Source: Diatrype stigma (lineage: Eukaryota > Ascomycota > Sordariomycetes > Xylariales > Diatrypaceae). From it: a stretch of DNA of 64,000 bases. The notes under the pieces are model-generated. The model saw only the letters and a program-made list of their open reading frames with translations, had not been told where the DNA came from and did no database searches. How positions within the stretch are numbered: the stretch's first letter is position 1; the number at the start of each line of letters is the position of its first letter. Of this stretch, positions 14,466-16,263 are shown one piece after another. A program made the position numbers and the translations under genes. The stretch spans positions 236,396-300,395 of the forward strand of contig JAKJXP020000057.1 of NCBI GenBank assembly GCA_022225965.2, given 5' to 3'.

Positions 14466-16263
14466 ATGATTGTATGCTGTTCTCTGCCCATGCTCTAGCG
14501 TTGTTGTGATATAGACTAATAGAACTTCCTCCAGCGCAAACAAGCTCGCCAGAGGCGGGACTATCTCTACCGAAAGGTTGGTAAAGCTCATGCATCTTGT
14601 GGTCGGAACAGTTCCTGTTGCCAGACGACTAACCCTGCGGCTGTAGGCCTTGATTCTGCGCGACGCCGAGATTAGCGAAAAGCGAGCGAAGCTTAGGGCA
14701 TCGTTAGCTACCGGAAAGCCCTTGGACCCTTCCATTGCCAATGACCAGCAGCTGAGGAAGGACTTCGCGTATGACGAATCGCGCCCCGATCGTACCTCCA
14801 ACGAAGAACTCGACCTCGATGATGAGTACTCCCAGCTTTCCGGTATTGTCGACCCTCGCGTTCTTGTCACTACCTCCCGAGATCCGTCTACGCGTCTTGC
14901 TGCCTTTGCCAAGGAGATTCGTTTATTATTACCAGGTACGTACGGTTATATCTCTGCCGGGAAGCTCAATATTATGTACTGCAATTTCACATGCTAACGA
15001 TAACATAACAGTATGTCCTGAAACCTGCTTTCCCTCCGTTCCGACTTGAACAACCGCATGATGAACCGAGTTCACCGCGATCCTATGGTTCACGATATAA
15101 AACACTAACATATGGTGGAAAGACGGCAATAAGGTTGAACCGTGGAAACTTGGTCCTTCCAGAGCTCACACGGTCAGCCCAGGCCGCTGGTCTTACCGAC
15201 ATAATACTCCTTCACGAGCATCGAGGTGTACCAACAGCATTGTAAATAGCCCTCAAAGCCTGTGCAGACAACGTAGCAAGGGCACTTGCTAATTCGCAAC
15301 AGGACACTTTCCCACTTCCCCCATGGGCCAACAGCTTCATTTTCATTACACAATGTCGTGCTGCGCCACGATATACCAGGTTCCATTCGGGGGACTGTTA
15401 GCGAGTCATACCCTCATCTCATCTTCGACGGTAAGGAATTCCAAATGTGCCCCCGTTTGGTATATGCTAAGTCGGATTTACAGGCTTCACGACACGCCTT
15501 GGAGAAAGGGTTGTCAAAATCCTAAAACACACGTTTCCTCCCAGAGAACCACCGACGAGCAAGGCTAAGCTTGGAAATCGCGTTGTAACATTCAAAAGGT
15601 AAGGAGTTGCCCCCAAACACCCGAGCCCTCACAAGTCGATATGACCAGTACTTTTCATCAAGCTCATTAATAGGCGCTAACCTTTTCACAGTATGTATTA
15701 GCAGTGACCTCCGTACCCTGTTACGCCGGGATTTCTTGCAATGGTGCTAACATATGTAGACATCGATGATACGATTGAGGTTCGACATCATGTCTTTATA
15801 AGAACAGGGCATGACAGTGTGGAGCTCAGTGAGGTAGGCCCACGGCTATCCATGAAGCTTTTCGAGATTCGGAATGGTACATGTAAGTTTCCCCTATATC
15901 GTTTTTACCCCCTTTCCCAATGCACAATCACACTCTTGTTGCTTTCTCTCTCACACCATTCGTGCCCTTTCCACACAGTTCAGGCTCGGAGGTGTGCGCC
16001 TGGCCACTATCAGAAAGGACAGATGCTAATTCTTTGGATTGTAGTGGATAATAAGGATGGTGACGTCGAATGGTGAGTGAATCCACATCGATTCTGTGGG
16101 CTTGGTTCGATGGTGCAAACAGGCCTCGTCTTGAACGCTTCCTTGAACCATATCCTACAAGAGAGATTTTGAACGTATTAGTGCTGAAGCGGGACTCGGC
16201 TAACGGGAGTATAGGCATCTCAACCAATATACCAGGACCAGTCGTAAGAAGGACTATCTATGA
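14466..16263 (+). CDS. IMP4: U3 snoRNP protein IMP4 (Brix domain), nine exons
   Basis: Rebuilt exons: 14466-14471, 14535-14576, 14647-14934, 15123-15241, 15303-15430, 15484-15597, 15760-15882, 16045-16072, 16215-16263. They give 298 residues, the usual IMP4 length (yeast and human about 290). The protein starts [17 protein letters not shown] and ends [12 protein letters not shown]. The Brix domain (about residues 85-275) contains [61 protein letters not shown] and DGDVEW. By family knowledge IMP4 works with IMP3 and MPP10 in the nucleolar SSU processome for 18S rRNA maturation. Exon 1 codes only Met-Ile. Two of the eight introns, at 14935-15122 and 15598-15759, keep the conserved frame only when read as nested stwintrons. 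Simple GT-AG splicing would shift the frame at both places or insert residues into a conserved loop. Confidence 0.93.
14935..15122 (+). other. IMP4: Candidate [D1,2] stwintron 1 of IMP4
   Basis: Exon 3 ends with the codon CCA at 14934 and exon 4 begins ACG at 15123, giving LLLP-TAIRLN. G14935 is the first base of an outer intron. An inner intron, 14936-15011 (GTACGT...GCTAAC...ACAG, 76 nt), interrupts it. Removing the inner intron fuses G to TATGTCC and makes a GTATGT donor. The 112-nt outer intron then ends CACTAAC...AAAG at 15122. No single GT-AG pair gives the conserved frame here. Confidence 0.82.
15598..15759 (+). other. IMP4: Candidate [D1,2] stwintron 2 of IMP4
   Basis: Exon 6 ends AAA A at 15597 and exon 7 begins AC ATC at 15760, giving VVTFK-NIDDTIEV. 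G15598 is the outer donor's first base. The inner intron is 15599-15691 (GTAAGG...GCTAAC...ACAG, 93 nt). Its removal fuses G to TATGTATT, again a GTATGT donor. The 69-nt outer intron ends GTGCTAAC...TAG at 15759. Confidence 0.82.

Follow-up and report, generated by a model that had tools for sequence, protein, structure and literature searches.

The closest described systems to the locus reported here are [D1,2] stwintrons, in which an internal intron lies between the first and second nucleotides (G1 and U2) of the donor of an external intron. For the Hypoxylaceae, the text of PMC9024468 (Fekete et al. 2022) covers 117 stwintrons, reports reverse-complement symmetry for all of them and recognizes a class of "uniquely occurring" [D1,2] stwintrons. 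Sister [D1,2] stwintrons of the Hypoxylaceae and Xylariaceae are treated in PMC12403724, whose text also records occasional missplicing of [D1,2] stwintrons from their distal sites. Section 3.3 of PMC9024468 already mentions a [D1,2] stwintron from further species of the Xylariales, and outside this order the texts of PMC5639578, PMC8469720 and PMC9024468 place a [D1,2] stwintron of lipS in the Eurotiomycetes, Lecanoromycetes and Leotiomycetes. As described in these sources, lipS [D1,2], bioDA [D2,3] and rtnA [D5,6] are all donor-disrupted stwintrons of Pezizomycotina, like those considered here but in other genes, and in bioDA and rtnA the donor is split elsewhere.

Two predicted [D1,2] stwintrons, introns 3 and 6 of IMP4, lie in the window (the whole 64,000-nucleotide stretch of DNA analysed). 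Like the uniquely occurring [D1,2] stwintrons of the Hypoxylaceae, they have a donor split between G1 and U2, their five motifs and spacings fit search model A as set out in PMC9024468, and no sequence-similar copy of stwintron 1 was found in the genome. Unlike the stwintrons in the text of PMC9024468, their host has Eutypa (Diatrypaceae) and Monosporascus as its nearest named relatives rather than Hypoxylaceae, and symmetry was not seen in them by our own, different test. The position of stwintron 1 is perhaps common to a relative, namely Eutypa, judging from its protein. The sister stwintrons described in PMC12403724 are of the same type, but those of IMP4 are unrepeated, and show neither a complementary 10-mer near their termini nor a fold above chance. 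In the main texts of PMC9024468, PMC12403724, PMC8469720, PMC5639578, PMC6616335 and PMC7138796 we found no mention of IMP4, Diatrypaceae or Eutypa, and within the stwintron literature searched the IMP4 stwintrons appear to be unreported examples of an arrangement that has already been described.

The gene encodes the U3 snoRNP protein Imp4 and was modeled by hand (Table 1). Solved Imp4 chains align end to end with the modeled protein, and a phmmer search matched the Imp4 chain 5jpq_c at E 2.1e-148 over query residues 1-297. A protein search with the IMP4 product gave 2206 relatives, with identity up to 94% among the matches listed; the homologue comparisons below use the listed 120 of these 2206. 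Also among the matches listed, the closest named relatives are from Eutypa lata (264/275 aligned residues identical), Monosporascus sp. 5C6A (269/284) and Xylariales sp. AK1849 (264/298). Eutypa belongs to the Diatrypaceae and Monosporascus to Xylariales incertae sedis, which makes the host a xylarialean fungus, probably one close to the Diatrypaceae. Imp4 is presumably essential. No second copy of IMP4 was found in the genome (49 Mb, 224 contigs) by a search that scores the best candidates only, the sole match outside the gene among these being a 35%-identical stretch on contig C22; given this, and assuming essentiality, the one copy must presumably be spliced correctly. Introns 7 (15883-16044) and 8 (16073-16214) are also long, at 162 and 142 nt, and can be read as single GT-AG introns.

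Table 1. Features of the IMP4 gene and of its two predicted stwintrons, in window coordinates
Feature	Position	Strand	Description	Basis
IMP4 gene	14466..16263	+	nine exons and eight intervening sequences; 298-aa product, the U3 snoRNP protein Imp4 (Brix domain)	manual model, full-length ORF, homology
Exon 3	14647..14934	+	ends ...LLLP (CCA 14932-14934)	model, homologue alignment
Predicted [D1,2] stwintron 1	14935..15122	+	intron 3, phase 0, 188 nt	model, published pattern, alternatives scored, shuffles
G1 of split external donor, stwintron 1	14935..14935	+		sequence
Internal intron, stwintron 1	14936..15011	+	U2-type, 76 nt: GTACGT 14936-14941, GCTAAC 14993-14998, CAG 15009-15011	sequence, published pattern
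External intron remainder, stwintron 1	15012..15122	+	TATGT 15012-15016 (TATGTCC), ACTAAC 15104-15109, AAG 15120-15122	sequence, published pattern
Exon 4	15123..15241	+	begins TAIRLN; ACG (Thr) from 15123, then GCA ATA	model, homologue alignment
Predicted [D1,2] stwintron 2	15598..15759	+	intron 6, phase 1, 162 nt	model, published pattern, alternatives scored, shuffles
G1 of split donor, stwintron 2	15598	+	G15598	sequence
Internal intron, stwintron 2	15599-15691	+	GTAAGG, GCTAAC 15676-15681, CAG	sequence
External intron remainder, stwintron 2	15692-15759	+	TATGTATT, GCTAAC 15746-15751, TAG	sequence
Exon 7	15760..15882	+	begins (A)AC ATC GAT = N-IDDT	model, homologue alignment

The sequence-only reading had proposed that the third IMP4 intron is a [D1,2] stwintron, with CCA followed by GGTACGT and an inner intron at 14936-15011 placed after a single G. 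These coordinates are all exact on the sequence, and the proposal is supported by the DNA elements, the reading frame, the protein join and the scoring of alternatives. Set between G14935 and TATGTCC, where it parts G1 of the external donor from U2, the internal intron has a donor, branch point and acceptor of its own, with spacing within that of model A as given in PMC9024468. At position 4 its donor differs from GURWGY, the A. nidulans consensus cited in PMC12403724, yet it is in the donor list of PMC9024468. Excision of the internal intron puts G14935 directly onto TATGTCC and leaves a canonical external intron (GTATGT...ACTAAC...AAG, 112 nt with G14935 counted) that ends at 15122, and every [D1,2] feature that can be tested on DNA was found at intron 3. 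The join LLLP-TAIRLN, which had been taken to be conserved and in phase 0, is indeed so: proline and threonine meet with nothing between them in 119 of the 120 listed homologues, the one exception carrying an AKK insert.

We consider it very probable that intron 3 is a [D1,2] stwintron removed in two steps, and that intron 6 is a second one working in the same way. In the first step, a U2 spliceosome would excise the internal intron by intron definition, bringing G14935 directly before TATGTCC so that a working GTATGT donor arises. The external intron (G14935 plus 15012-15122) would then be excised by a second spliceosome, joining CCA to ACG so that LLLP-TAIRLN is formed. From the mechanism reported in related fungi we infer which step comes first; use of the structure in vivo is likewise inferred.

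To gauge chance expectation, model A (section 2.1 of PMC9024468, as described there) was applied to the whole window, forward and reverse strand alike. It gave two distinct matches, both in IMP4 (14935-15122 and 15598-15759), and their ends are the ends set independently by protein homology. Against these 2 real matches, 60 window sequences shuffled by dinucleotide had 0.25 on average and never more than 1, and 2000 shuffles of the IMP4 gene never gave two matches on the + strand. When the interior of stwintron 1 (14942-15100) was shuffled, the middle motif arose in 116 of 20,000 sequences over its full range, and in its strict form (CTAAC..HAGTATGT) in 1 of 20,000; by the full published range it is uncommon, not extremely rare. 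The corresponding counts for the interior of stwintron 2 were 341 (full range) and 1 (strict) per 20,000. A looser first pattern, whose gap range excludes the second site, found only the first in the window and was present in 3 of 100 shuffles.

By its sequence, intron 6 looks like a second [D1,2] stwintron. Its removal restores VTFK-N-IDDT, and the asparagine is present in 116 of the 120 listed homologues, the other four being gapped there. The best of 95 alternatives at this intron scores 616.5 bits and yields a protein one residue longer by way of a 2-nt exon; none of the 95 satisfies the donor list and the spacing in the text of PMC9024468 together. No sequence similarity is detectable between stwintrons 1 and 2 of IMP4.

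The four proteins gapped at the sixth join are three from Monosporascus (P0026, P0029 and P0030, 284 aa) and one from Eutypa lata (P0091, 278 aa). The Monosporascus annotations are clean at the third join and have a 14-residue deletion, corresponding to the first part of exon 7, at the sixth; P0001, encoded on a contig of 1804 nt and 282/284 identical to P0026, has the 14 residues that P0026 misses. In the Eutypa protein, AKK is inserted exactly at the third join and 23 residues are absent at the sixth. We imposed a single GT-AG intron on the window DNA, running from the distal donor at 15599 to either of two AGs within exon 7, chosen to match these proteins. One AG gave the join TFKRTGHDS and 284 aa, matching the three Monosporascus proteins; the other gave TFKSEVGPR and 275 aa, matching the Eutypa protein once AKK is subtracted from its 278. 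The Eutypa and Monosporascus annotations look as though gene prediction had skirted split donors. On this indirect evidence, both genera probably have a stwintron at intron 6, and Eutypa probably has one at intron 3 as well. In Monosporascus, with its clean third join, intron 3 may or may not be a stwintron.

The alternative that survives best does without a stwintron at intron 3: a plain 187-nt phase-0 intron (CCA|GTACGT...AAAG) would carry one extra G at 14935/14936 through a sequencing or assembly error. Without the second G the intron would indeed be single and canonical, and the gene has two more introns that are long (162 and 142 nt). An error at the GGTACGT junction, which the sequence-only reading had listed as a way in which it could be wrong, nevertheless leaves unexplained the internal GCTAAC...CAG|TATGT (1 in 20,000 strict shuffles), the same geometry at intron 6 and the AKK at the third join in Eutypa. 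It also leaves unexplained a genome-wide excess of the pattern GGTANG-N45..75-CTAAC-N3..18-AGTATGT, which occurs at 15 places against 2 for a reversed control. On this evidence we regard the extra G as highly unlikely.

A [D1,2] stwintron at intron 3 also gives a better protein than other ways of splicing the region. Alternatives were enumerated from GT or GC donors (the first at 14900-14975) and AG acceptors (the last at 15085-15150) with introns of at least 40 nt, and were scored against a profile built from the 120 homologues listed, with the window protein excluded. Within this scanned range, 38 alternatives are in frame and free of stops, five of them with one intron, and they constitute the case for a slightly altered Imp4, made either through two introns with a tiny exon between them or through one intron that starts at a different donor. 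The best of the 38 (two introns, no net change in residues) reaches 611.0 bits and the best with one intron (donor GCCGGG, seven residues added) 610.4, against 622.5 for the stwintron model. All of them fall at least 11.5 bits below it, a gap that is modest because the alternatives differ from the stwintron product by few residues. An in-frame mini-exon at 15012-15037, named beforehand as a refuting case and as 27 nt long, is 26 nt long (27 only with G14935 counted); inclusion of the corresponding nine residues (VCPETCFPS) fits worse than the stwintron model, at 608.6 bits. The claim that no GT/AG pair keeps the frame without adding residues held in substance, but 14940-15133, the only one-intron alternative with a GT donor, keeps the frame and loses a net two residues, turning TAIR into GT (P-GT-LN), with a score of 606.3 bits. 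This is also the only one of the 38 with every donor published: the other 37 have at least one donor outside the list in the text of PMC9024468, and its own donor, GTACGG, is on that list. Its branch point, ACTAAC, lies 21 nt before the acceptor, one base beyond the range in that source, and so none of the 38 satisfies both donor list and branch-point spacing. Taken with the clean proline-threonine join in nearly all of the listed homologues, these results make an altered Imp4 extremely unlikely.

Among GT/GC-AG introns in the scanned range, the conserved protein is recovered only when both parts come out, partial processing leading to early stops at codon 133 (unspliced), 125 (only the internal intron removed) or 185 (one step from the distal sites, 14936-15122). 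Removal mostly by that last route, with one G left behind and IMP4 limited by frameshift and decay, is barely credible: occasional missplicing of this kind is reported from the Hypoxylaceae and Xylariaceae (PMC12403724, as noted above), but the stop at codon 185 makes it hardly the main route in a presumably essential gene for which no second copy was found.

The pattern used for the genome search also points to stwintrons in other genes. Two of its 15 places are the IMP4 stwintrons. At nine of the 13 others the joins were picked by eye, partly by reference to family sequences, and tested afterwards. At five loci (L012, L016, L018, L020 and L021, with the pattern match starting at base 1501 when each is oriented to it) a match of the spliced product to a family or a structure runs across the join, and these are probable [D1,2] stwintrons in genes for, in that order, seryl-tRNA synthetase, a short-chain dehydrogenase, a laccase, trehalose synthase and NMD3. 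The match to yeast seryl-tRNA synthetase is gapless at the join, and the NMD3 match is gapless; the laccase match is gapless at the join, with a one-residue gap a few residues upstream. For the short-chain dehydrogenase the evidence is the span of the Pfam match across the join. For the trehalose synthase the Pfam match likewise crosses the join, with 12 residues in excess overall, and the PDB gave no match. No convincing join was found at L014, L019 and L024, nor at L015. L010 and L017 have open frames that reach no Pfam family at its cut-off, L011 (MIP) has a Pfam match only downstream of the join, and at L013 (MFS) the match extends four residues beyond the join and falls short of the Pfam cut-off.

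An origin as sister stwintrons, that is, as propagating copies of similar sequence, was considered and rejected, as a genome search with the DNA of either IMP4 stwintron recovered that stwintron and nothing else. Among ten stwintron models, an apparent similarity (scores as high as 34, where shuffles peaked at 30) was likewise discarded, the scoring having included the search motif; with that motif masked, none of the 45 pairs reaches the 99% shuffled level. For stwintron 1, 257 of 300 shuffles were at least as symmetric in an alignment test of our own, unlike that in the text of PMC9024468. Its near-terminal complementarity (a stem of the NTIRE-10 type) was reached by 53 of 300 shuffles, and 146 of 200 were at least as stable in fold (z 0.62). 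In stwintron 2, symmetry, near-terminal complementarity and fold were likewise none of them above chance. Symmetry in the eight other stwintron models was ordinary for seven, that of L010 being matched by 7 of 300 shuffles. The IMP4 stwintrons thus fit the "uniquely occurring" class as described in PMC9024468, save for the reported symmetry, which was measured differently there.

These findings suggest that a lineage near Eutypa (Diatrypaceae) has [D1,2] stwintrons too, outside the two families, Hypoxylaceae and Xylariaceae, that PMC9024468 and PMC12403724 mainly treat. The step is a modest one: PMC9024468 already mentions a [D1,2] stwintron elsewhere in the Xylariales, and in other classes lipS carries one. 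The Imp4 annotations of Eutypa and Monosporascus suggest that stwintrons distort gene models even in a highly conserved gene, and a comparison of introns 3 and 6 across these two genera could date one gain or loss of an internal intron, which bears on the origin of introns. We also considered, as a very unlikely idea, that the IMP4 stwintrons and the predicted ones in NMD3 and seryl-tRNA synthetase might form a shared throttle in which incomplete splicing yields early-stop RNAs; if so, the output of ribosome building would track spliceosome capacity.

Broader patterns were also run across the genome against the control, and gave 5 candidates versus 1 with AGTAAGT, 13 versus 3 with AGTACGT and 6 versus 2 with a CTGAC variant; in each of the AGTAAGT and AGTACGT sets, two matches have one common 3′ end. 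The external donors of the candidates may be biased, with GTATGT at 15 (control 2), GTACGT at 13 (control 3) and GTAAGT at 5 (control 1).
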